Shown here piece by piece: positions 9,341 to 37,085 of a stretch of 64,000 nt of DNA; positions within the stretch are counted from its first letter, which is position 1, and each line of letters starts with the position of its first letter. Source of the stretch: Labrys sp. KNU-23 (GTDB lineage Bacteria > Pseudomonadota > Alphaproteobacteria > Rhizobiales > Labraceae); NCBI RefSeq assembly GCF_008330945.1, contig NZ_CP043488.1, positions 1,116,001 through 1,180,000 of the forward strand, written 5' to 3'. The notes under the pieces are model-generated. The model was not told the DNA's origin, did no database searches, and saw nothing but the letters and a program-made list of their open reading frames with translations. The position numbers and the translations under genes were made by a program.

Positions 9341-10536
9341 GGCACCTCGCCGTCGATCCATTGATTGTCAGCCGCCACGACGCGACCGCGCTTCACCACG
9401 AGTGCGCGCGCCGGACGATCCACCAGGATCTGCGCCAGGTTCTCGCCCGCGATCAGGACGAGGCTGCCCTCGCAGCCCACCTCGAGCCCATAGCCTTTCA
9501 GGCCGAGCAGGTCGGCGCCGCGACGCGTGCCCATGTCGAGGGCCCTGAGCAGCTCCGCATCGGTGCGGCAATGGGTGCGGTAGGCCAGGAGCCAGCAGCG
9601 GTCGAGCATGTCGCCGTCGCCGTGCGGGTTCCAGGTGTCACGCAGGGAATCCGAGGCGACGGCACAGCGCACGCCGCGCGCCGCGAGCTCGAACATCGGC
9701 GGAAAGCCGATCTCGCCCGGCACGGCGGAAATGATGCCGATCCCCGCTTCGGCCAGCACGTCGATCATGCGCTGCACCTTGTGCGCCGGGCCGTCGCCAA
9801 GACAGAAGGCATGGCTGACGACCACCCGCCCCTGCATGCCCAGCGCCCTCGTGCGCTCGGCGATCATGCCGAGCTCGAACAGGCCGAGCTCCCCCGGCTC
9901 GTGCAAATGGATGTCAATCTTGGCACCCTTCCGGCTGGCGATACCGAAGATGGTGTCGAGATGGCCCTTGGGATCGGCATCGATGGTGGCGGGGTCGATA
10001 CCGCCGATAACGGAAGCGCCTTCGTCCAGCGCCGCCTCCATCAGTTCCGCCGTGCCGGGGTCGATCATCAGGCCGGTCTGGGGAAAGGCGACGAGTTCGA
10101 GGCCGACGGCATGCTTCACCTTCTCCCAGGCTTCCAGGACGCCGTGGAGATTGTCGAGCTTGTAGCCGGTGGAAATATCGACATGGCTGCGGATATGGGT
10201 CGAGCCCATCTCGACACAGCGCCGCATCAGATTGCCGGCGCGCTCGGGAACGCCCCAGGGCAGGTCCTTGCGGATGGCGACCTCGTTGTCGATCATTGCC
10301 CGGAGCGACGGCGGCACGTTGATGGAGTGCCAGGGCAGGCCCCACAGGATCTTGTCGAGATGGACATGGGCCTCGACGAAGGGGGCGATGGCGATGGCCC
10401 CCTGGCCGTCGACAACCGGGACGCCCTCGGGCCGGTTGAGGTCGCGGCCAATGGCGGCGATCTTGCCGCCACGGATCAGGATGTCGGCGCTTTCCTTGGC
10501 GTCCGGGCGGACATTGGCGAGAAAAAGATCGGTCAT
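9337..10536 (-). CDS. CodA-like metal-dependent amidohydrolase/deaminase
   Basis: A 399-residue amidohydrolase-superfamily enzyme closest in motif pattern to cytosine deaminase CodA. The first metal site is EAHVHLDK, the second HLHEPGE, the third VVSHAF, and the final Asp lies in VASDSLRDTWNPHG, which mirrors the CodA HDDVFDPW pattern. Relatives deaminate or hydrolyse cytosine, isopropylammelide and other N-heterocycles. It sits inside a transporter operon between the permease and the ATPase genes, so its substrate is presumably what that importer brings in. Start ATG 10536 is 25 bp after the permease stop. The exact substrate is not assignable. Confidence 0.85.
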   Translation of the reverse strand: MTDLFLANVRPDAKESADILIRGGKIAAIGRDLNRPEGVPVVDGQGAIAIAPFVEAHVHLDKILWGLPWHSINVPPSLRAMIDNEVAIRKDLPWGVPERAGNLMRRCVEMGSTHIRSHVDISTGYKLDNLHGVLEAWEKVKHAVGLELVAFPQTGLMIDPGTAELMEAALDEGASVIGGIDPATIDADPKGHLDTIFGIASRKGAKIDIHLHEPGELGLFELGMIAERTRALGMQGRVVVSHAFCLGDGPAHKVQRMIDVLAEAGIGIISAVPGEIGFPPMFELAARGVRCAVASDSLRDTWNPHGDGDMLDRCWLLAYRTHCRTDAELLRALDMGTRRGADLLGLKGYGLEVGCEGSLVLIAGENLAQILVDRPARALVVKRGRVVAADNQWIDGEVP

Positions 10537-12790: not shown

Positions 12791-14362
12791 TCAATTCATG
12801 GTGTAGTACCAGAAGCGCGTATACTCGTCGGCGGGCACCACGGCGTTGACCTTGTCGCTCATGCCCCAGGTCAGGAACTGCTGGTGCAACATGATCTTGC
12901 CGACCTCGTCGCGGTGGATCTTCACCACTTCCGAGATCATGGCCTGCCGCTTGGCCGGGTCATATTCGGTGCCGATCTGCTCGATCAGCTTGTCCACCTT
13001 GGGATTGGAATAGCCCTTGGGGTTCCAGGTGCCCAGATCGCCCGTGGGCGTGTGGATCGTCGCCGACATGATGTTGTAGGCGTCGATCGAGGGCAGGCCC
13101 GCCCACCCCAGCATATAGAAGGAATATTTGCCGGCCGGCAGTTCGGTGTCGGTCTGGACCGGCGTGTGCATGGTCAGCTGGACCTTGATGCCGATCTTGG
13201 CGAGCATACCGACGGTGGCCTGGCAGATCCGTTCGTCATTGATGAAGGAACCGGCCGGGCAATCCATCGGCAAGGTGAAGCCCTTGGCATAGCCCGCTTC
13301 CGCCAGCAGCGCCTTGGCGGCCGCGACATCATAGGGAAAGCGCACGTCGAGGCTGGCGTCGTAGAAAGGAAGCTGAGGGGCGAGCGGCACTGCGGTCGGA
13401 CGCGAATTGCCACGCATGATGCTGCGCTTGATGCCTTCAATGTCGATGGCCTGGTAGATGGCCTTGCGCACCCTGACATCGGCGAGCGGATTACCCTCGA
13501 CGCCGCTGCCCGGCAGCGTCTTGCTCTGCTGATCCATGCCGAAGAAGATCGAGCGCAGATGTGGCGCCCGCATGATCTTCATGCCGGGTGTGGACGCGAT
13601 GCGGTCGACGTCCTGTGACGGTGCGTTGCGGATGAAGTCGACCTCGCCCGACAAGAGGGCGGCGACGCGGGTGGCGGCATTGGTGATCGGCGTATAGACG
13701 ATCTCGTCGAGATTATGCTGGGGCTTGTCCCACCAATCCTCGTTCTTGACCAGCACGGTGCGGACGTCCGGCTGGCGCGAGGCCAGCTTGAACGGCCCGG
13801 TTCCGATGCCTTGGGTGGTCATGGCGCCACCGGTGTTGGAGGAAAGGTCGATCGGCTTGGTTGCGCCCACCGATTCCTGGAACTTCTTGTCCAGGATGTA
13901 CCAGCCGGCGAAATCGTTGAGCAGCAGCGCATATTTGCGCTTGAGCGTCACCTCGACGGTGTGATCATCGATCTTGGTGATCTTGGCGATGGGTTCGAGC
14001 AGGCCAGCAAAGGGGGAGCCGGGAGCCCCTGCCCGTTCGAAGGAGAAGATCACGTCATCGGCGGTGAAGGGGTCGCCATTGTGGAACTTGACGCCCTTGC
14101 GCAAATGGAACCGCCACTCGGTGTCCGAAACCGCCTCCCAGCTCTCGGCCAGGGCCGGCTCCAGCTTGAGGTCTTTATTCCAGCGCACCAAACCTTCATA
14201 GACATTGCTGAGCAGGCTGAGCGTGAAGTCGTCCCGCGCCGCATGCGGGTCCATGGAACTGATTTCCTGGGCTTCGGCGAAACGCAGCGTCTTGGCGCTT
14301 GCCGCTCCCGTGGCCAGCACGGCGCACGAGGCGATCAGCAGGATCTTCAAATAGGTCTTCAC
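12791..14362 (-). CDS. Dipeptide-type ABC substrate-binding protein (system 1)
   Basis: A 523-residue SBP_bac_5 protein with a Sec signal peptide (MKTYLKILLIASCAVLATGAA, cleaved after ASA). Family landmarks are LEPALAESWE, FHLRKGVKFHNGDP, GTGPFK and NEDWWD. I chose GTG 14362 rather than ATG 14368 because the SD GGGAG abuts that ATG but lies 6 nt before the GTG, which also gives a cleaner signal peptide. It determines the specificity of system 1; the ligand is unknown. The upstream region carries two palindromes that match the local operator pattern. Confidence 0.88.
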   Translation of the reverse strand: MKTYLKILLIASCAVLATGAASAKTLRFAEAQEISSMDPHAARDDFTLSLLSNVYEGLVRWNKDLKLEPALAESWEAVSDTEWRFHLRKGVKFHNGDPFTADDVIFSFERAGAPGSPFAGLLEPIAKITKIDDHTVEVTLKRKYALLLNDFAGWYILDKKFQESVGATKPIDLSSNTGGAMTTQGIGTGPFKLASRQPDVRTVLVKNEDWWDKPQHNLDEIVYTPITNAATRVAALLSGEVDFIRNAPSQDVDRIASTPGMKIMRAPHLRSIFFGMDQQSKTLPGSGVEGNPLADVRVRKAIYQAIDIEGIKRSIMRGNSRPTAVPLAPQLPFYDASLDVRFPYDVAAAKALLAEAGYAKGFTLPMDCPAGSFINDERICQATVGMLAKIGIKVQLTMHTPVQTDTELPAGKYSFYMLGWAGLPSIDAYNIMSATIHTPTGDLGTWNPKGYSNPKVDKLIEQIGTEYDPAKRQAMISEVVKIHRDEVGKIMLHQQFLTWGMSDKVNAVVPADEYTRFWYYTMN

Positions 14363-26379: not shown

Positions 26380-27294
26380 TTACGGCTCGGGAAGGCTGGC
26401 CTCCCGCTTGAGCCATTCTATGAAAAGGTCAACCGCCTTCTTACGGGCCCTGCGCCGGGGCGCGATGAAGAAATAGGCGTTTTGGGTGACGATGGCTTCA
26501 TTCGTGAGCCTGACCAGCCGGTTCTGGGTGAGCAGGTCCTCGACGAGCCGGCGCCATCCGAGTGCGATGCCGTGACCGTTCAACGCGGCATAGATCGCCT
26601 CGGTATAGAAGCTGCAATGCATGCCCGAGCCTTTGCCGGGGATCGTGACGGAGAACGCCGCAAGCCACTGGTTCCAATTGGTCCAGGTGGGATCGGCGGT
26701 ATCATTGGTGATCAGGGGATAGCGCGTGAGCTGGGCGAGATCCCTGATCTGCCCGATCTCCTGCGCATAATCGGCGCTGCAGATGGGGAAGATCTCGTCG
26801 TGAAAGAGAAACTCGGCATCCCCATCAGGCCACAAGCCGCTTCCGAAGCGGATGGCGAGGTCCACATCCTCGCCGTCGACCTTGATGGCATTGTCCTGCG
26901 TGATGATGCGTAGCCTGATATTGGGATGGGCCTTCGAAAAAGAGGCAATGCGGGGGAGAAGCCAGAAATGGGAGAAGGCTATCGTCGCCGCGATGGCAAG
27001 ATCGTCCCCCGCCTCTTCCTTTGACCAGTCCGAGATCGTCTCCGCGATGAGGTTGAAGGCCGTCGAGGTCGTGGACGAAAGCTGCTTGCCCTTCTCGGTC
27101 AATTCGACGCGCCTGTGCAGGCGCCGGAACAGGGGAAAGCCGAACATATCCTCCAGGAGATGGATCTGGCGGCTGATCGCTGCCTGAGTGACCCCCAGTT
27201 CCGCAGCCGCCCTGGTGAAACCGCCCAAGCGTGCAACCGCCTCGAAGGCGGTGAGAGCAGTAAGCGGAGGAAGTTTTCGCCGCAAATTGGCCAT
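26380..27294 (-). CDS. LysR-family regulator, GcvA-like
   Basis: A 304-residue LysR-type regulator. The winged HTH spans about residues 8-65 (FEAVARLGGFTRAAAELGVTQAAISRQIHLLE), with the GcvA-type FPLFRRLHRR wing. The effector domain shows VDLAIRFGSG, GIALGWRRLVEDLL and a basic tail. It is divergent from the Rieske oxygenase gene across a 159-bp gap, the classic arrangement for control of the neighbour. Its 3' end is 22 bp from the amidohydrolase stop, convergent. Confidence 0.88.
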   Translation of the reverse strand: MANLRRKLPPLTALTAFEAVARLGGFTRAAAELGVTQAAISRQIHLLEDMFGFPLFRRLHRRVELTEKGKQLSSTTSTAFNLIAETISDWSKEEAGDDLAIAATIAFSHFWLLPRIASFSKAHPNIRLRIITQDNAIKVDGEDVDLAIRFGSGLWPDGDAEFLFHDEIFPICSADYAQEIGQIRDLAQLTRYPLITNDTADPTWTNWNQWLAAFSVTIPGKGSGMHCSFYTEAIYAALNGHGIALGWRRLVEDLLTQNRLVRLTNEAIVTQNAYFFIAPRRRARKKAVDLFIEWLKREASLPEP

Positions 27295-27453: not shown

Positions 27454-28706
27454 ATGCTCAACACATTCTCGTCTGCGATCTCGCCCCTCCTGGACCAGCG
27501 CATGCCGGGCCATGCCCTCCCTGCCGGTCTCTACACGCGCGAGGATGTCTTCAAGGCAGATCTCGACGTGTTCTTTCGCCGGCACTGGATCTATGTCGGC
27601 CTGGAATGCGACGTTCCCGAGCCGGGCGACGCCCATGTGATCGATCTCGGCAGCTCCAGCATCATCCTGCTGCGCGACGACGACAGCCAGATCCGGGTGC
27701 TTCACAATGTCTGCCGCCATCGCGGCGCCCGCCTGCTGGGCAGCGGCACATCCATCGTCTCCAAGCTCGTCTGCCCCTATCATCAGTGGACCTATGAGCT
27801 CGATGGCGAACTTGCCTTTGCGCCGCATATGGGCACGGGCTTCGACAAGACCTGCAAGAGCCTCAAGCCGGTCCATTTCCGGTCGATCGGCGGCCTGATC
27901 TATGTCTGCCTCTCGGACAATCCCCCGAAGACATCGGCACGCTCGAGACCGTGATGCGAGAGCGCCTGGCACCCTACGATATCGCCAACAGCAAGGTCGC
28001 CTTCCAGAGCGAGATCATCGAGAAGGGCAATTGGAAGCTCACCATCGAGAACAACCGGGAATGCTATCACTGCTCGTCCAATCATCCCGAGCTCTGCGTC
28101 TCCTTCATCGATCTCGATTTCGGCTTCGATCCGGCCAGCCTGAGCCCCGAGGACCGGGAAGAGGCCGAGCAGCACCAGGCCCTCTACGAGGCACGTACCA
28201 AGGCCTGGGAGGCCGAGGGCTATCCCTCGGCAGCCGTCGAGCAACTCGTCGACTGCGCCACCAATTTCCGTACGCAGCGCCTCATCATCGCGGGCGCCGG
28301 CGAATCCCAGACGCCGGACGCCACTGCCGCCTCGTCCAAGCTCCTTGGCTCGATGACACGCAAGGATCTCGGCGACGTTCATCTGTGGGGCCATAATTGC
28401 TGGCATCATTTCATGGGCGACCATGCCGTGTGCACGATGATCATTCCCCTCAGCGCCGACGAGACGCTCGTCCGCACGAAGTGGCTGGTGCACAAGGACG
28501 CCGTCGAAGGCCGCGACTACGATCTCGACAAGCTGACCAGCGTGTGGGTCGCCACCAACGAACAGGACGCGCAACTGGTCGCCCGTTCCTATTCGGGCGT
28601 CGTCGATCCCGCCTATGAACCCGGTCCCTACTCTCCCTTCACCGAGGGCCAGCTCGACAATTTCGTCACCTGGTACATCGATCGGATGCGCGCCAATGGC
28701 TACTGA
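27454..28706 (+). pseudogene. Rieske non-haem iron oxygenase, betaine demethylase type, with a -1 frameshift
   Basis: Two frames together give one 416-residue-equivalent oxygenase like GbcA or stachydrine demethylase Stc2. The first (27454-27954) carries the Rieske cluster CRHRG...CPYHQW; the second (from about 27927) carries the mononuclear iron site ENNRECYHCSSNHPE. At the C-run 27922-27926 one base is missing: adding one base joins DNPP directly to EDIGTLETVMRERL and restores family sequence. Without it translation ends 27 nt later and no catalytic domain is made. This is either a real inactivating deletion, phase variation at the C-run or a sequencing error. The reductase gene overlaps its end by 11 bp. 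Confidence 0.85.
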
Positions 28707-29778: not shown

Positions 29779-29870
29779 CCCCCGGTGCGGACTTCTACCA
29801 ACCGCAATTGCAGGGCCAATCGCAGACATCCTTACCCATAAGTGCTGCCTTTACGAGGTTGCCGCAGGAT

Positions 29871-29964
29871 TGGAGTGTCGATCTCCAGATCGACAGTCTT
29901 GGAAATGGCGCACTTGCTGAAAGACCTCTGGAAGAAAGATGTCGATTCGGAGATCGACGCTCCA
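29871..29964. repeat. Long imperfect inverted repeat (arms of about 28-30 nt)
   Basis: Left arm 29871-29900 and right arm 29936-29964 are complementary except for three mismatches and one indel, around a 35-nt loop. Each arm contains its own smaller dyad: GTCGATCT-CC-AGATCGAC on the left, GTCGAT-N6-ATCGAC on the right. As RNA it would form a very stable hairpin about 95 nt after the reductase stop; as DNA it resembles a small MITE. No T-tract follows. Confidence 0.6.
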
Positions 29965-30151: not shown

Positions 30152-30167
30152 TGTACATTTATGTCTA
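30152..30167. promoter_or_regulatory. Operator TGTACA-N4-TGTCTA upstream of the TetR gene
   Basis: TGTACATTTATGTCTA matches, with one base different in the second half-site, the TGTACA-N4-TGTCAA motif found twice in the divergent promoter region at 33.6 kb. It lies 83 bp before the TetR start, consistent with autoregulation. Confidence 0.55.
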
Positions 30168-30250
30168 CTAAATCGACACAATTGACGCTATGCTCGACAT
30201 CTATGTGCATTTCGCCTGATCGCCGATTTGCCGTTTGATGGGGGCGTTTC

Positions 30251-30877
30251 ATGGAGCAGGTTTTGGGCGAAACGGGCTGGCGGGGCTCGGCAGAAGTCTG
30301 GCTGGAGGCGGCCTATGAACTCCTGCTCGAATCCGGGGTCAGTACGGTCAAGATTCTGCCTCTGGCCAAGAAACTTGGCCTGTCGCGCACCAGCTTCTAT
30401 TGGTTCTTCAAGGATCGCGAGGAACTCCTCGGCGCCCTCATCGCGCGCTGGCGCGACAAGAACACCGGCAACCTCGTCAAGCAGGCGCAGGCCTATGCCG
30501 AATCGATCGCCGAGGCGATGCTCAATGTCAATGATTGCTGGATCGACAAGACCCTGTTCGACGCCCAGTTCGAATTCGCCGTACGCAGCTGGGCTCTCGA
30601 ATCCTCGGACATCCTCGCTGAAGTGAGGACTGCCGACCAGATCCGCCTCGAAGCGCTTGCGCAGATGTTCACACGGTTCGGCTACACCGCCATCACGGCC
30701 GACGTGCGGGCCCGGACGACCTATCTCACCCAGATCGGCTATATCTCGATGCAGACGCGGGAAGATGTCGGCGTTCGCATGAAGCGCATTCCCGAATATG
30801 TCGAGATCTTCACCGGTGTCCGGCCCGAACAGCGCGAACTCGATCGCTTCCACGCCAGGCATGACTTCAGGGCGTAA
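30251..30877 (+). CDS. TetR-family transcriptional regulator
   Basis: A 208-residue TetR-type repressor with an N-terminal HTH (VKILPLAKKLGLSRTSFYWFFKDREELL, about residues 33-60) and a variable helical ligand domain. ATG 30251 follows GGGGGCG. It is convergent with the cupin/flavoenzyme operon whose promoter, like its own, carries the 6-4-6 motif, so it probably controls that operon and the divergent flavoenzyme. The ligand is unknown; a methylated amine or betaine fits the context. Confidence 0.87.
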   Translation: MEQVLGETGWRGSAEVWLEAAYELLLESGVSTVKILPLAKKLGLSRTSFYWFFKDREELLGALIARWRDKNTGNLVKQAQAYAESIAEAMLNVNDCWIDKTLFDAQFEFAVRSWALESSDILAEVRTADQIRLEALAQMFTRFGYTAITADVRARTTYLTQIGYISMQTREDVGVRMKRIPEYVEIFTGVRPEQRELDRFHARHDFRA

Positions 30878-30910
30878 CTTGTTTCGGGGCCCGATCAGCC
30901 CAGGGCTCCC

Positions 30911-31513
30911 TCAGGGCCGGTTGCCCGCCTGCAAGGCCCAGAAGGCGAACAGCGGCGTGTCGAGCGAGCGCATCGCATGCCTGATACCGGGCCTGTTGTA
31001 GAACGAGCCGCCAATCCCTGGCGAGAACCAGTCTCCCTCCCCCTGCCGGAACTCGCCGTCCGACATTACCAGATAGACCTCCTCGGGGGCATGGTCATGG
31101 TCGGGATAGCGTACCTTCGGCGCCATCAGCGACACGCCGAGCCAGACGTCCCCGCGTTCCTCAAGGCCACCGGGGCCCAGAAGCATCGCATTGGCGTGCC
31201 CGTCCTCGAAATTGGTGCTGGCCGTGCTGTCATTGTTCGGACGTCGGCGCCATTGGAGGTTGGGCTCGACCGCGCTGAAGCATTCCAGCAGCCTGACAAG
31301 CGTCGTGTGGCCTGTTTCGAGCCCAAGAGCCTGATCGAGATGCTCGCAAGCCGGAAGGCGAGCGCCAGCGCCTGCTCTTGCTTCCCTTGGCTCTTCCAGC
31401 GCCCTGAAGATCTCGGCGATGGACCGGCGTGCCTCAGGGTCCTGCGCGAATTGACCGAAAGCCTCCCGGGCTGCATCGACGAAATTCTGAAGGACCATGC
31501 TTCGCTGCGTCAT
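30911..31513 (-). CDS. DMSP-lyase-like cupin (cupin-DLL family)
   Basis: A 200-residue protein whose C-terminal half matches the DddL/DddQ-type single-domain cupin: first metal motif YPDHDHAPEEVYLVMS (His, His, Glu, Tyr in order), second motif PGIRHAM. Bona fide members cleave dimethylsulfoniopropionate (DMSP); many soil relatives have an undetermined role. ATG 31513 has SD GAGGG and begins 15 nt after the flavoenzyme stop, so the two are cotranscribed. An ATG at 31531 overlaps that stop and lacks an SD. The operon partner suggests a substrate in the onium or N-methyl class. DMSP activity is not claimed. Confidence 0.8.
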   Translation of the reverse strand: MTQRSMVLQNFVDAAREAFGQFAQDPEARRSIAEIFRALEEPREARAGAGARLPACEHLDQALGLETGHTTLVRLLECFSAVEPNLQWRRRPNNDSTASTNFEDGHANAMLLGPGGLEERGDVWLGVSLMAPKVRYPDHDHAPEEVYLVMSDGEFRQGEGDWFSPGIGGSFYNRPGIRHAMRSLDTPLFAFWALQAGNRP

Positions 31514-31527
31514 CGAAACCCTCGCGA

Positions 31528-33564
31528 TCAAATATCCTTGGCCAGCCTGAGGCCATCATAGATGGCCGCATGGGTATTGCGAGCAGCAACCGCATCACCG
31601 ATGCGGAAGAGCTGGAACTGGCCCTCCCCGTTGCGAACCACGGATTGGGGCTGGCCAGCGATCAATTGCTCGTAGGACATCTCGCCGAGATTGCTCGAGG
31701 ACGGCTTCAATTCGAAATAGAGGTCGTCGAGCGGGATCGTGCCGTGATTGACGACGATCTGGTCGAAGCTGCGCTGCCTGACAATGCCGCCGTAGTCGCT
31801 GCCGATCTGGGCGACCAGCTGGTTTCCCGCCTTTTCGACGGCAAGAAGGCGGTAGGTGACGGTGAAGGTGACATCCAGCTTCTGCAGGGAACGCATATAG
31901 GGCACGAGATTCATCCCCATGACCTCGGGCGCGAAAGAGCGGTCCGGCGTCATGATCTCCACTTTCGCCCCGGCCTGCGCCAGGATCTCGGCCGCCTGCA
32001 AGCCGGCATGGTCGCCGGCATCGTCGAAGATGAGCACGTTGGAACCGGGTTTGATATCGCCGGAGATGATATCCCAGGCGGAGACGACGAGCTCGTTGCC
32101 CTTGGAGAGCACTTCCGTATGCGGCAGCCCGCCCGTGGCGACGATCACCACGTCCGGCTTCTCGGCCTCGATGCTGTCGGCATCCGCCCAGCTGTTGAAA
32201 TGGAAGGTCACGCCCAGCTTCTCGCACTGGCTCATGCGCCAATCGATGATGCTGATCATTTCCTTGCGCCGCGGGCTCTGGGCAGTAAGCCTGACCTGTC
32301 CGCCCGGCTTGCCGGCGGCCTCGAAGACAACGACCCGGTGCCCCCGCTCGGCGGCGACCCGTGCCGCCTCCAGACCCGCCGGGCCGGCACCGATGACGAC
32401 GACGGTCTTGCGGACTTCGGCCGGCTGCAGAGCATGCGGCATGGTCAGCTCGCGACCGGTGGCCGGATTGTGGATGCAATAGGCGGCCCCGCCCTGATAG
32501 ATGCGGTCGAGACAGTAATTGGCGCCGACGCAGGGCCGGATGTCATCCTCGCGTTTTTCGATGATCTTGCGGACCAGATGCGGATCCGTCATGTGGGCAC
32601 GCGTCATCCCGATCATGTCGACCTTGCCGGCGGCGATGGCGTGACGTGCCGTAGCGACATCCGGAATCTTGGCGGCGTGGAAGGTCGGAAACTGCGTAGC
32701 AGCGCGGATCTCACCCGCGAAATCGAGATGCGGCGAGTTCGCCATGCCCTGGATCGGGATGACGTCGGTCAGCCCGGCATCGGTATCGATATGGCCGCGG
32801 ATGACGTTGAGAAAATCGATCAGGCCGCTTTCCTTGAGGCGGCGTGAAACCTCCAGGCCTTCTTCCTTCGTCGTGCCGCCTTCGAGTTGCTCGTCCGCGG
32901 TATAGCGCACGCCGACGATGAAGTCGGGTCCGACGCGCTCGCGGATGGCCTTCAATACGTCGAAGCCGAAGCGCAGGCGGTTTTCGAGCGATCCGCCATA
33001 GGGACCGTCCAGCTCATTGGTGAGCGGCGACCAGAACTGGTCGATCAGATGGCCATAGGCTTCCAGCTCGATGCCGTCCATACCGCCGGCCTTCATGCGC
33101 TCGGCCGCGTCGGCGAAATCCTTGATGATGCGCGCGATGTCCCAGTCTTCCAGTTTCTTGGGAAAGGCGCGATGCGAGGCTTCTCTCTGGTGGGACGGTG
33201 CCACGACAGGCAGCCAATCGCCCTTGTCCCAGCGCGTGCGGCGGCCAAGATGCGTGAGCTGGATCATCACCGCTGCGCCATGCTCATGAACGGCGTCGGT
33301 CAGGTCCTTGAGCCAGGGGATGATCTCGTCCCGGTAGGCGAGCAGATTGTTGAAGACCGGCGGACTGTCCTTCGAAATGGCGGCGGATCCCGCCGTCATG
33401 GTCATAGCGACGCCGCCCTTCGCCCGCTCCACATGATAGGCCCGATAGCGCTCCTTCGGCATGCCGTCTTCGGGATAGGCCGGCTCATGCGAGGTCACGA
33501 TGATGCGGTTGCGGAGCTTGAGATGCTTGAGCTGAAAGGGCTGCAGGAGGGGATCGTTCGACAT
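31528..33564 (-). CDS. TMADH/StcD/DgcA-like FMN-FeS-FAD N-demethylase
   Basis: A 678-residue modular flavoenzyme: an N-terminal old-yellow-enzyme TIM barrel binding FMN (residues 1 to about 340), an iron-sulfur segment, then an FAD/NAD domain with VVVIGAGPAGLEAARVAAERG (shared fold with 2,4-dienoyl-CoA reductase). The iron-sulfur segment reads CVGANYC...YCIHNP, so the second Cys of the TMADH pattern CxxCxxC is Ala here; I believe StcD/DgcA relatives share this. Such enzymes demethylate N-methylproline or dimethylglycine. A TTGACA-17-TAGCAT promoter under a TetR operator precedes it. The exact substrate is open. Confidence 0.85.
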   Translation of the reverse strand: MSNDPLLQPFQLKHLKLRNRIIVTSHEPAYPEDGMPKERYRAYHVERAKGGVAMTMTAGSAAISKDSPPVFNNLLAYRDEIIPWLKDLTDAVHEHGAAVMIQLTHLGRRTRWDKGDWLPVVAPSHQREASHRAFPKKLEDWDIARIIKDFADAAERMKAGGMDGIELEAYGHLIDQFWSPLTNELDGPYGGSLENRLRFGFDVLKAIRERVGPDFIVGVRYTADEQLEGGTTKEEGLEVSRRLKESGLIDFLNVIRGHIDTDAGLTDVIPIQGMANSPHLDFAGEIRAATQFPTFHAAKIPDVATARHAIAAGKVDMIGMTRAHMTDPHLVRKIIEKREDDIRPCVGANYCLDRIYQGGAAYCIHNPATGRELTMPHALQPAEVRKTVVVIGAGPAGLEAARVAAERGHRVVVFEAAGKPGGQVRLTAQSPRRKEMISIIDWRMSQCEKLGVTFHFNSWADADSIEAEKPDVVIVATGGLPHTEVLSKGNELVVSAWDIISGDIKPGSNVLIFDDAGDHAGLQAAEILAQAGAKVEIMTPDRSFAPEVMGMNLVPYMRSLQKLDVTFTVTYRLLAVEKAGNQLVAQIGSDYGGIVRQRSFDQIVVNHGTIPLDDLYFELKPSSSNLGEMSYEQLIAGQPQSVVRNGEGQFQLFRIGDAVAARNTHAAIYDGLRLAKDI

Positions 33565-33597
33565 GGCTCGGTGTCCAGCGTTGCATATGCGTCGAAA

Positions 33598-33626
33598 ATG
33601 CTAGGCAGAATGTACACCGGTGTCAA
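33598..33626 (-). promoter_or_regulatory. Promoter of the N-demethylase gene with overlapping TetR operator
   Basis: On the minus strand TTGACA (33626-33621) and TAGCAT (33603-33598) are spaced 17 bp, a good sigma-70-type promoter 34 bp from the start codon. The -35 is the left half of TTGACA-CCGG-TGTACA (33626-33611), the operator repeated at 33655. A repressor bound here would block the -35. This lies in the 348-bp gap 33565-33912, in which I see no gene. Confidence 0.65.
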
Positions 33627-33654
33627 TGATGAGCTGACGAATTAGTCATGTTTT

Positions 33655-33670
33655 TTGACAATAGTGTACA
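33655..33670. promoter_or_regulatory. Second TTGACA-N4-TGTACA operator in the divergent gap
   Basis: TTGACA-ATAG-TGTACA has both half-sites identical to the site at 33611-33626 with a different spacer, 44 bp away and in the opposite orientation. It faces the plus-strand flavoenzyme gene. Between the two copies is a further weak dyad, TGAC-N6-GTCA. Confidence 0.65.
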
Positions 33671-33912
33671 TTTTTATTGCTTCTAAACGAGTGTCTATGG
33701 CAGCATCGCTCAGGTCCATGGGCAGCACCGCCTCCAACTGGTGAAATCGCAGCCGTTTCATCGCCACTCCCGGCTTTCGGCTGGTCGCAGGAGGAATTCA
33801 CGATGAGGAAACACCTGACGATCGGACATGCCTCTTCCCGCTACTCGGCCCCGGGAGGCTGAATCCGCGCCCTATCTCCGCCATCTCCCTTCCAACCAGC
33901 CGGATAGTAACG

Positions 33913-35898
33913 GTGTCCAAGCAGTTCCCCCGCCTGTTTTCACCCCTCACGATCGGCACGCGCACGCTGAGGAACAGGATCGTTTTCGGCGCCCACACCG
34001 CAAACATGGCCGTGAACGGGCTGCCGACGGAACGGCATGCAGCCTATTATGCCGAACGCGCCAAGGGCGGCGCCGGCATGATCGTGGTCGAGCCGATGCC
34101 GGTGCACCCCGCGGCCATTCTCACCCGCGGCAATTTTCGGGTTTGCGACGACAGCGTCATTCCCGCCTTCAGGAAAGTCGTCAGCGCCATCAAGGACAAC
34201 GGCGCCGTCGCCATCCAGCAGCTCTATCATATCGGCGCCCATGGCGATTCCGACAATTCCTTCCATCCCCATTGGTCCCCCTCGGGCCTGCCGAGCTACC
34301 ACGACAGCGATGGCTCGCATGCGATGAGCGAGGCCGAGATCCAGGAGACGATCGACGGCTTCGTGGAGGCGGCACGCCGGTGCCGGGCCGCCGGCTTCGA
34401 CGGCGTGGAGGTCTGGGCCGCCTATCTCGGCCTGGTCGACCAGTTCTGGACGCCCTGGACCAATCGCCGCCAGGACCAATGGGGCGGCACGCTGGAGAAC
34501 CGCACCCGCCTGTCGAGGGAAATCCTCACCCGCATCCGCAAGACCTGCGGCAAGGACTTCATCATCGGCCTGGCCATCAGCGACGAGCCTGACTACAGCG
34601 TTGCGCTCAGCCGCGACGAACTGGCCGAAATCGTGGGTCTTCACGACCGGCAGGGCCTGATCGACTATGTCACCTGCGGCTCCGGCGGCTATCTCGACTT
34701 TCACAAGCTGATGCCGACCTTTCTCTATCCGGAAAAGCTCGGCGCGGATCTGGCTGCCAGGATCAAGGCCGCCGTTACACATGCGGTCGTCATTGCCGAA
34801 AGCCATATCCGCACGCCTGAAAATGCCGAGACGGTCCTGGGTGAAGGCTCTGCCGACCTGGTTTCCATCGTGCGCGGCCAGATCGCCGACCCGCATCTGG
34901 CCAGAAAGGCCAGCGAAGACCGGGCCGACGACATCAGAGGCTGCATCTCCTGTAACCAGATGTGCTGGGGGCGTCGCTCGCGCGACTATTGGATCAGTTG
35001 CCTGATCAACCCGTCCGTCGGACGCGAGTTCATGTGGGGCGGCGATCGTTTCGAGCCGGCGGCCGTGGCTAGGCACGTTCTCGTGGTGGGTGGCGGGCCT
35101 GCAGGCCTGGAGGCAGCCCGCGTCGCCGCCGAACGCGGCCACAGGGTAACGCTGGCCGAAGCCTCCAGCCGGCTGGGCGGCAATTTCCTGCTCGCCGGCC
35201 TGCAGCCCCGCCGCGCCCAGATCCTCGATCTCCTCGCCTGGTATGAGCGCCAGCTGTCCAAGCTCGGCGTCGATGTCCGCCTGAACTGCTACATGGAGGC
35301 CGACGACGTGACGGCGATGGCACCGGACACCGTCATCCTCGCCACCGGCTCCCTGCCGCCCGACACCGGCTTCCAGAAAGCCCTCCCGGCGATAGAGACC
35401 TTGCCCGGCATCGAAAAGGGCGGCGTCTTCTCGATCGAGGCGGTCATGAGCCGCCAGGCCCGCCTCGGCAAGCGCGTGCTGCTGCTCGACGAAGGCGGCG
35501 GCTGGCGCGGCGGCGGAACGGCCTGGAAGCTGGCGGAGGAAGGCCACGAAGTCACCATCCTCACGCCGGACGCCTTTGTCGGCAAGGAATTGCAGCGCAC
35601 CACCGCCGACGTTCCCCTGCGACGGACACTCAAGAAGCTTGGCGTCACCTGGCAGGTCGAGGTCAGCATTGCCGAATGGCATGGCCAGGGCGCCACGATC
35701 ATCGACCACAACAGTGGCGAAAGGTCGTTCGTCGCAGCCGACAGCCTGGTGCTGGCCATGACAAACATCCCGGCAAACTGGCTCGCGACGGACCTTGCGG
35801 CCCAGGGGGTGCCCCTTGTCGAGATCGGCGATTGTGCCGCCCCCCGCCAGGCCCCCTATGCCTTTTTCGACGGCCGAAAAGTCGCCCTCGGCCTCTGA
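33913..35898 (+). CDS. TMADH-like FMN-FeS-FAD oxidoreductase (second paralogue)
   Basis: A 661-residue enzyme with the same three-part architecture as its divergent neighbour: OYE barrel, iron-sulfur segment, FAD domain (HVLVVGGGPAGLEAARVAAERG). Unlike the neighbour it has the full dienoyl-CoA-reductase-type Cys set, CISCNQMC then Cys 11 residues later in WISCLINP. The two therefore differ in cluster ligation and probably in substrate. The start is GTG 33913 with a weak SD; it is the first in-frame start giving the family N-terminus FPRLFSPLTIG. Likely role: oxidative demethylation of an N-methyl compound. Confidence 0.82.
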   Translation: MSKQFPRLFSPLTIGTRTLRNRIVFGAHTANMAVNGLPTERHAAYYAERAKGGAGMIVVEPMPVHPAAILTRGNFRVCDDSVIPAFRKVVSAIKDNGAVAIQQLYHIGAHGDSDNSFHPHWSPSGLPSYHDSDGSHAMSEAEIQETIDGFVEAARRCRAAGFDGVEVWAAYLGLVDQFWTPWTNRRQDQWGGTLENRTRLSREILTRIRKTCGKDFIIGLAISDEPDYSVALSRDELAEIVGLHDRQGLIDYVTCGSGGYLDFHKLMPTFLYPEKLGADLAARIKAAVTHAVVIAESHIRTPENAETVLGEGSADLVSIVRGQIADPHLARKASEDRADDIRGCISCNQMCWGRRSRDYWISCLINPSVGREFMWGGDRFEPAAVARHVLVVGGGPAGLEAARVAAERGHRVTLAEASSRLGGNFLLAGLQPRRAQILDLLAWYERQLSKLGVDVRLNCYMEADDVTAMAPDTVILATGSLPPDTGFQKALPAIETLPGIEKGGVFSIEAVMSRQARLGKRVLLLDEGGGWRGGGTAWKLAEEGHEVTILTPDAFVGKELQRTTADVPLRRTLKKLGVTWQVEVSIAEWHGQGATIIDHNSGERSFVAADSLVLAMTNIPANWLATDLAAQGVPLVEIGDCAAPRQAPYAFFDGRKVALGL

Positions 35899-35960: not shown

Positions 35961-37085
35961 TCACGCCGCCTGCGCAAATCGCCTCTCGCCATCCCCGACC
36001 AGGCTCCTGTCGAGCTCGAAACCAAGGCCCGGCCCCTGGAAAGCCTCGATCCAGCCCTGCTTCGGATCGAGGTCGGGCGAGACGACGATGTCCTTTTGCA
36101 CCAGCTGCCACATGATCTGATTGCCATCGTCGAGATTGGGGATGGCCAGCGCGATATGGTGCTCGGCACAGGTGGTGATGCCTGTGGTGAAGGAACTGTG
36201 GATGCAGATCTTCAGCCCCGCCGCCTCGGCGACAGCCGCCGCCTTCAGCATGGGCTGGATGCCGCCGATTTCGCGCGGCCCGATGCAGATCATGTCGGCG
36301 GCGCGCTGGCGGCAGATCTCGTGGACGTCGTAGAGCGTGAAGGCCGCCTGGTCGGCGACGATCGGGATGCCGACGGATTCCCGCACATGCGCCATGGCCG
36401 GAATACTCCAGCTCGATGTCGGCTGCTCGATGAACTCGATCTCGAATTTCTCGAGCTTGCGGCACATGTTGATTGCCTCGTGCACGCCCCAGCCTTCATT
36501 GGCATCGAGCCGCAGGCGCGCATCGCCGATCTCGCGGCGGACCGCCGCGGTAATTTCCAGGTCGAGCTTCTCGCCCCGGCCGACCTTCAGGTAAAAGACG
36601 CGCTCCCCACGCGCCCGGCCCGCGGCAGCGTCACGTGCCAGTTCTTCGGCCGTTTCCCCCTGCAGGAAATAGAAATAGCCGACGGCCTTGCGATGGGCTC
36701 CGCCGAGAAGACGATGGACCGGCAAGCCGGCAAGCTTGCCCTGCAGGTCCCACATCGCCATGTCTACGCCCGAGAACATCTGGTTGGCCGCGCGCATGAT
36801 ATTGGCGCCATGGCCGAGATATTCCTGGTGGAAGATGCGCGCGATCAGCGGCGCGACGTCATAGGGCGACTGGCCGACCAGATGGCCCGTCAGGCGCCTG
36901 AGAATCGCCGCCGTCCCGGCCTGGTCCGGCGCCACGGTGCATTCGCCGATGCCGACCATGCCGTTGTCGGCCTCGATCTCGATCAGATTGACGGCGAAAC
37001 TCTCCCTGATGCCGTAGGACCAGTGATAGGGCTGCTTAAGGGGCAGCACCAGCGGCCGGACGCGCACCTGCGAGATCTTGACCAT
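35961..37085 (-). CDS. Enolase-superfamily enzyme (mandelate racemase/muconate lactonizing group)
   Basis: A 374-residue protein with the N-terminal capping domain and the C-terminal barrel. Metal ligands are D194 (LRLDANEGW), E220 (FIEQP) and D245 (PIVADQ). At the KxK position it has Tyr-Leu-K167, so only the second Lys remains. The second catalytic Lys of the MLE group is absent at IGPREIGG (268-275), while H296 in CIHSSFTTG could be the partner base. Betaine epimerases such as HpbD belong to this superfamily and fit the neighbourhood, but the altered residues argue for another reaction. SD GGAAGGAA precedes ATG 37085. Confidence 0.83.
   Translation of the reverse strand: MVKISQVRVRPLVLPLKQPYHWSYGIRESFAVNLIEIEADNGMVGIGECTVAPDQAGTAAILRRLTGHLVGQSPYDVAPLIARIFHQEYLGHGANIMRAANQMFSGVDMAMWDLQGKLAGLPVHRLLGGAHRKAVGYFYFLQGETAEELARDAAAGRARGERVFYLKVGRGEKLDLEITAAVRREIGDARLRLDANEGWGVHEAINMCRKLEKFEIEFIEQPTSSWSIPAMAHVRESVGIPIVADQAAFTLYDVHEICRQRAADMICIGPREIGGIQPMLKAAAVAEAAGLKICIHSSFTTGITTCAEHHIALAIPNLDDGNQIMWQLVQKDIVVSPDLDPKQGWIEAFQGPGLGFELDRSLVGDGERRFAQAA

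Follow-up and report, generated by a model that had tools for sequence, protein, structure and literature searches.

A probable TetR-type repressor circuit with paired operators at a betaine-demethylation-type locus of Labrys sp. KNU-23

The clusters for proline betaine use of Zhao 2013 and Kumar 2014, both cited in PMC4113996, reportedly combine a demethylase of the Rieske type, a demethylase of the flavoenzyme type and betaine transport. Genes of these kinds are also present in the DNA described here, a stretch of 64,000 nucleotides from Labrys sp. KNU-23 (contig NZ_CP043488.1, positions 1,116,001 to 1,180,000; referred to as the window), in which a gene for a TetR-family regulator lies close to a cupin gene and two flavoenzyme genes, OYE1 and OYE2. 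Most characterised TetR-family regulators repress, and the autoregulated repressors of the TetR/tetA type are the nearest general model: in relatives of the window the TetR gene is likewise divergent from its target, and dyad operators lie over the promoters. The present system differs from that type in having two strong sites 42 bp apart with a weak dyad in the middle, and in that regulator and target are no longer adjacent in the window. A further parallel is QacR (PDB 1jt0), chains of which are among the weak structural matches of our TetR model and which binds a cooperative operator as two dimers. Several dimers are proposed for one operator region here as well, but the dyads are about 21 bp apart, i.e. 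two helical turns, and the cooperativity is presumed.

Stachydrine, a compound exuded by the host, promotes the colonisation of roots and nodulation (PMC12239276). The closest described locus for its breakdown is in S. meliloti, where pSymB carries stcD, the gene of an N-methylproline demethylase (PMC12239276). With OYE1 a pSymB gene located at 1108030-1110063 in strain 1021 shares 86% identity, and this gene is probably stcD. It is divergent from an orthologue of our TetR (73% identity) and is accompanied by a conserved operator pair. In contrast, Labrys has its TetR gene apart from OYE1 and two copies of the operator pair, and the P5CR and ABC transporter genes have been lost from the window.

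We propose that four sites of the form TNGACA-N4-TGTRCA are the operators of the TetR protein encoded at 30251-30877, which would repress the OYE1-cupin genes, OYE2 and its own gene until it is released by a ligand. Judging from sequence comparison, we put the probability of this reading at about 0.87. Three of the sites are found exactly where an earlier note on this DNA had placed them, and a fourth (30194-30209) had been overlooked. With the fourth site, each of two regions holds an inverted minus/plus pair: P1, before the TetR gene, with sites starting at 30152 and 30194 (42 bp start to start), and P2, between OYE1 and OYE2, with sites starting at 33611 and 33655 (44 bp). With at most two mismatches there are 5 matches in the window against 0.87 expected, and 100 shuffles all stayed below 5. 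The features are collected in Table 1.

Table 1. Operator sites, promoter and genes of the locus (window coordinates)
Feature	Position	Strand	Remarks
P1 operator O1, TAGACATAAATGTACA	30152..30167	-	one mismatch; matrix score 15.1
P1 putative degenerate middle dyad, TCGACACAATTGACGC	30173..30188	.	left half-site intact; offset 21 from O1
P1 operator O3, TCGACATCTATGTGCA	30194..30209	+	matrix score 21.9; 42 bp after O1
TetR-family regulator, 208 aa	30251..30877	+	Pfam TetR_N 5e-9; 80 named orthologues
Cupin, DMSP_lyase family (PF16867)	30911..31531	-	4e-59; overlaps end of OYE1 gene
OYE1, FMN/FAD flavoenzyme, probable StcD-type N-methylproline demethylase	31528..33564	-	PF00724 and pyridine nucleotide domains
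OYE1 promoter	33598..33626	-	-35 TTGACA inside P2 O1, 17-nt spacer, -10 TAGCAT
P2 operator O1, TTGACACCGGTGTACA	33611..33626	-	exact motif; matrix score 27.8
P2 putative degenerate middle dyad, CTGACGAATTAGTCAT	33634..33649	.	21 bp before O3
P2 operator O3, TTGACAATAGTGTACA	33655..33670	+	exact motif; matrix score 27.6
OYE2 leader with deletion scar	33671..33912	+	starts like the L. okinawensis P2-P5CR junction; vestige of P5CR start at about 33804-33827
OYE2, second flavoenzyme, fold family shared with OYE1 at about 33% identity	33913..35898	+	downstream of TetR-P5CR(-ABC) in relatives

The conservation of the sites was followed in 80 named TetR orthologues of Rhizobiales (71-98% identity). 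Both sites, each with at most one mismatch, are present in 76 of the 80 promoters, and in 59 of the 80 they are free of mismatches. Of 78 cases, 67 have the sites 42 bp apart and 11 have them 43 bp apart. All but three of the TetR orthologues adjoin a divergent OYE1 orthologue (82-87% identity), mostly at a distance of about 146 bp; of the three, two are Labrys loci and the third is that of Ensifer sp. LCM 4579. The orthologue columns give TNGACA-N4-TGTACATT as the conserved core; its inner part, ACA-N4-TGT, is symmetric and the outer bases are not, and one more distant relative has a fully symmetric TCGACA-N4-TGTCGA. Since the same pair, at the same spacing, stands before the counterpart gene in about 80 relatives, we consider the P1 and P2 sites to be, almost certainly, docking sites of TetR. 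Both the promoter of the regulator and that of its target carry dyads which are conserved among the orthologues, i.e. the pattern expected of an autoregulated divergent TetR operator. The local circuit that the earlier note proposed, with TetR acting on its own gene and the two divergent flavoenzyme genes, is the best reading, and conservation across genera backs it far more firmly than one window alone was able to; the note's phrase "direct evidence" was too strong, the support being comparative.

The orthologue loci, 916 kb in all, have 151 strong sites in TetR promoters and 8 at other places. These 8 make up four further pairs, all of them upstream of genes of this set that have changed place. 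Two of the pairs are P2 regions in other Labrys genomes. A third, in Ensifer sp. LCM 4579, is a second pair located between P5CR and OYE1; TetR and OYE1 have come apart in that strain too. The fourth precedes a betaine-type ABC transporter gene in Ectorhizobium quercum. As the exceptions form pairs at such places, the operator pair travels with the gene set whenever the latter is broken up.

The specificity of the motif was investigated with a matrix trained on 156 sites from 78 non-Labrys orthologues. It returned exactly four sites in the window, those of Table 1, and nothing else above 6; in simulated windows the maximum score was 7.5 on average and 16.6 at the highest. The exact TTGACA-N4-TGTACA has two occurrences in the whole genome (7.55 Mb, two contigs), and P2 accounts for both. 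The form TNGACA-N4-TGTRCA occurs 8 times, four times at P1 and P2, and the remaining four are of the weak TCGACA..TGTGCA form. Across about 150 genomes the exact motif was found 16 times, of which 8 are at the TetR/OYE1 locus. TTGACA is a common word at promoters, and the sites could on that account be promoter-like words arisen by chance, but the conservation, the shuffles, the matrix scan and the genome-wide rarity exclude this, and we regard its probability as negligible.

The same searches delimit the regulon. Sites with one mismatch number 40 in the genome (including the four at P1 and P2) against 27 for a reversed-pattern control, a modest excess, and a wider regulon was rejected on this ground. 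The best scorable site elsewhere, C1:4197047 (matrix score 20.6), is unpaired and near an unrelated gene, and a high-scoring site in another genome (G147) is at unrelated genes of the histidine-utilisation type. In the window scan no matrix site was found before the Rieske oxygenase gene or at the OsmF-type ABC genes at 38-42 kb; as the Rieske genes carry no such site, the circuit would span just part of the pathway. The sites might also be those of a different pathway regulator, for instance of the GcvA-like LysR protein encoded at 26380-27294, or of an unlinked factor. Such an assignment has in its favour that the LysR gene adjoins the Rieske gene, both in the window and in several of the relatives. 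However, the Rieske gene has no site upstream, not every relative with the sites shows the LysR gene beside its TetR locus (e.g. Pseudochrobactrum does not), the sites follow the TetR gene on relocation, and their dyad form suits a TetR-type dimer. We find this assignment barely credible.

The promoter TTGACA-17-TAGCAT described in the earlier note was recovered with 10 of 12 matching positions, where shuffles of the region average 0.3 promoter-like sites. By our reading of the columns, TTGACA and a TANNNT-like -10, 17 or 18 nt on, appear to be conserved before OYE1 in 78 orthologues. TTGACA at O1 is a good -35, and the sites might simply be the -35 elements of paired divergent sigma-70 promoters, with no regulator involved. 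We hold this to be highly improbable because the TGTACATT half, located in the spacer, is as strongly conserved as TTGACA itself. Moreover, the second base of O3 is free and often C (TCGACA) while TGTACATT stays fixed (78 orthologues), i.e. O3 resembles an operator and not a -35. In addition, Labrys P1 keeps both sites, including O1, though no minus-strand gene adjoins O1, which argues that the pair matters for the control of TetR itself.

Another possibility is that TetR binds the sites but activates one arm, O3 acting from upstream of the TetR or the OYE2 promoter. In the relatives a possible TetR promoter, TTGTNN-17-TANGA by our reading, lies downstream of O3 and very near the ATG, so that O3 would be upstream of this promoter and not over it; the OYE2 side lacks a good core promoter as well. 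On the other hand, O1 covers the -35 and the spacer of the OYE1 promoter at P2, which is a repressing position, and activation would depart from the general habit of the family. We consider activation unlikely.

Repression by a TetR released by its ligand remains our preferred reading, and the following points weigh against it. Repression as such is presumed from the habit of the TetR family. The earlier note's two divergent flavoenzyme promoters hold for OYE1, whereas the promoter search found no recognisable -10 on the OYE2-facing side of P2; the same search gave no promoter-like match in P1. The P1 sites score below those of P2, and since simulated windows reach 16.6, the weakest site (P1 O1) taken alone is within chance. 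The equation of OYE1 with StcD, though probable, was drawn from orthology and position, the pSymB records being unannotated, and the ligand (proline betaine or N-methylproline) was deduced from neighbour genes only. As for OYE2, its control by the TetR operators would follow from the ancestral operon, in which OYE2 is downstream of the same operator pair.

A TGNTANGA-like block is conserved upstream of the TetR genes of some relatives (L043, L046, L166), no more than about 16 bases from the ATG, and a clear Shine-Dalgarno sequence is sometimes missing. The TetR transcript of the relatives may be nearly leaderless.

Between the strong sites of 67 orthologues there is a weak dyad, AAAACA-N4-NGTC, exactly 21 bp from both. 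The offset of 21 has the best mean matrix score in the interval, and the next best, offset 9, overlaps O1. Related dyads 21 bp apart are also seen in more distant orthologues (Pseudochrobactrum, 57% identity; genome G110, 54%). This pitch suggests dimers stacked every two helical turns, although the sequences compared are related and hence not independent of each other. The operator may then be a portable strong-weak-strong unit of three dyads with a 21-bp pitch, bound by stacked TetR dimers and copied whole where the gene set was separated (Labrys, an Ensifer, Ectorhizobium); we offer this as a tentative proposal with slightly less than even odds. If it is true, members of the regulon would be expected to keep the entire unit and not a single site.

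The proposed mechanism is as follows. The P2 operators straddle the OYE1/OYE2 intergenic region and those of P1 are located ahead of the TetR gene. TetR dimers probably bind O1 and O3, perhaps also the weak middle dyad, on one face of the DNA, and with TetR bound, the OYE1-cupin genes, OYE2 and the gene of TetR itself would stay silent. An intermediate of the breakdown of proline betaine (stachydrine), probably N-methylproline or proline betaine, would release it. The sequences themselves display the sites, their conservation, specificity and spacing, and the history of the locus, and to these we add binding, repression, cooperativity and ligand as inferences.

As to this history, the order in Rhizobiaceae is cupin-OYE1 <- P -> TetR-P5CR-SBP-permease-ATPase, followed by OYE2 in part of the relatives, while in L. 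okinawensis it is P1-TetR, cupin-OYE1 <- P2 -> P5CR-SBP-permease-ATPase-OYE2. The window and Labrys sp. WJW have both lost the stretch from P5CR to the ATPase gene. By blastn, window positions 33564-33825 correspond to 9586-9847 of the L. okinawensis locus L161 (P2 to the start of P5CR) and 33891-33958 to 13767-13834 (start of OYE2); the ortholog search found no close P5CR or SBP orthologue remaining in the KNU-23 genome. The ancestral arrangement, cupin-OYE1 <- P -> TetR-P5CR-ABC-OYE2, had a single divergent promoter. The TetR gene of Labrys has moved beyond the cupin gene and taken along its own copy of P, now P1. With P5CR and the ABC transporter subsequently deleted in the window's lineage, P2 directly faces OYE2. 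Among the three Labrys with the locus, P1 has hardly changed starting with the TGTACA of O1; ahead of that point the sequences diverge, and in L. okinawensis they do so strongly. O1 itself is unchanged in all three, save one base of the N4 spacer in L. okinawensis, although its 5' flank has diverged.

The neighbours of the orthologues in relatives include a Rieske oxygenase and its reductase, a P5CR-like enzyme and a proline/glycine-betaine ABC transporter, with formaldehyde-detoxification genes in R. etli and R. bangladeshense and a proline racemase in Pseudosulfitobacter. They point to the demethylation of proline betaine or N-methylproline to proline, and the cluster looks built for the breakdown of plant proline betaine. 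No named TetR regulator of proline betaine catabolism was found in the literature searched, which did not include a key pathway paper; the novelty of the regulator is therefore not established.

The regulator has a TetR_N domain (PF00440, 36.2 bits against a cut-off of 24), and its predicted model is an all-helical fold of ten helices (pLDDT 88.4) that matches TetR-family structures with weak scores (TM about 0.4-0.7). OYE1 has Oxidored_FMN and dinucleotide-binding domains in addition to its orthology to the pSymB gene. The cupin is a conserved neighbour of OYE1 in many relatives and recurs in rhizobial betaine loci; the Pfam name DMSP lyase may misdescribe its role here. The nearby Rieske oxygenase and reductase are of the GbcA/GbcB/Stc2 kind; in NCBIfam they match GbcA/GbcB best, with scores that fall short of the curated cut-offs, and the C-terminal part matches 3vca/3vcp and 4qup.

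Some further observations concern the surroundings. The Rieske oxygenase frame (27454-28706) is broken, with one base missing in or next to a C-run near 27940 in comparison to two Labrys relatives, which is either a sequencing error or a recent frameshift. After the reductase gene (29870-29960) there are two palindrome-like repeats, TGTCGATCTCCAGATCGACA and TGTCGATTCGGAGATCGACG, similar in other Labrys. In contrast to the proline betaine clusters mentioned at the outset, the enolase-superfamily gene of the window (35961-37085) has PDB 2pgw, a "muconate cycloisomerase", as its nearest solved relative (nearly full-length match, E 4.7e-227), and its assignment as HpbD was rejected for this reason. 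Shinella sp. HZN7 has a related dyad, TGGACATTAGTGTCCA (L171 7699-7714), in the interval that separates the gene of a more distantly related TetR paralogue from sarcosine oxidase genes, and there may be a sister circuit in this strain.

Taken as a circuit, the regulator is well supported by comparison and falls within a known type. The analysis gives the betaine-demethylation genes of Rhizobiales a candidate regulator whose operators are defined, and through the orthologue in S. meliloti the model can be tested in a strain used in the laboratory. Labrys itself can be viewed as a natural experiment, in which a divergent promoter was split and its regulation apparently kept.

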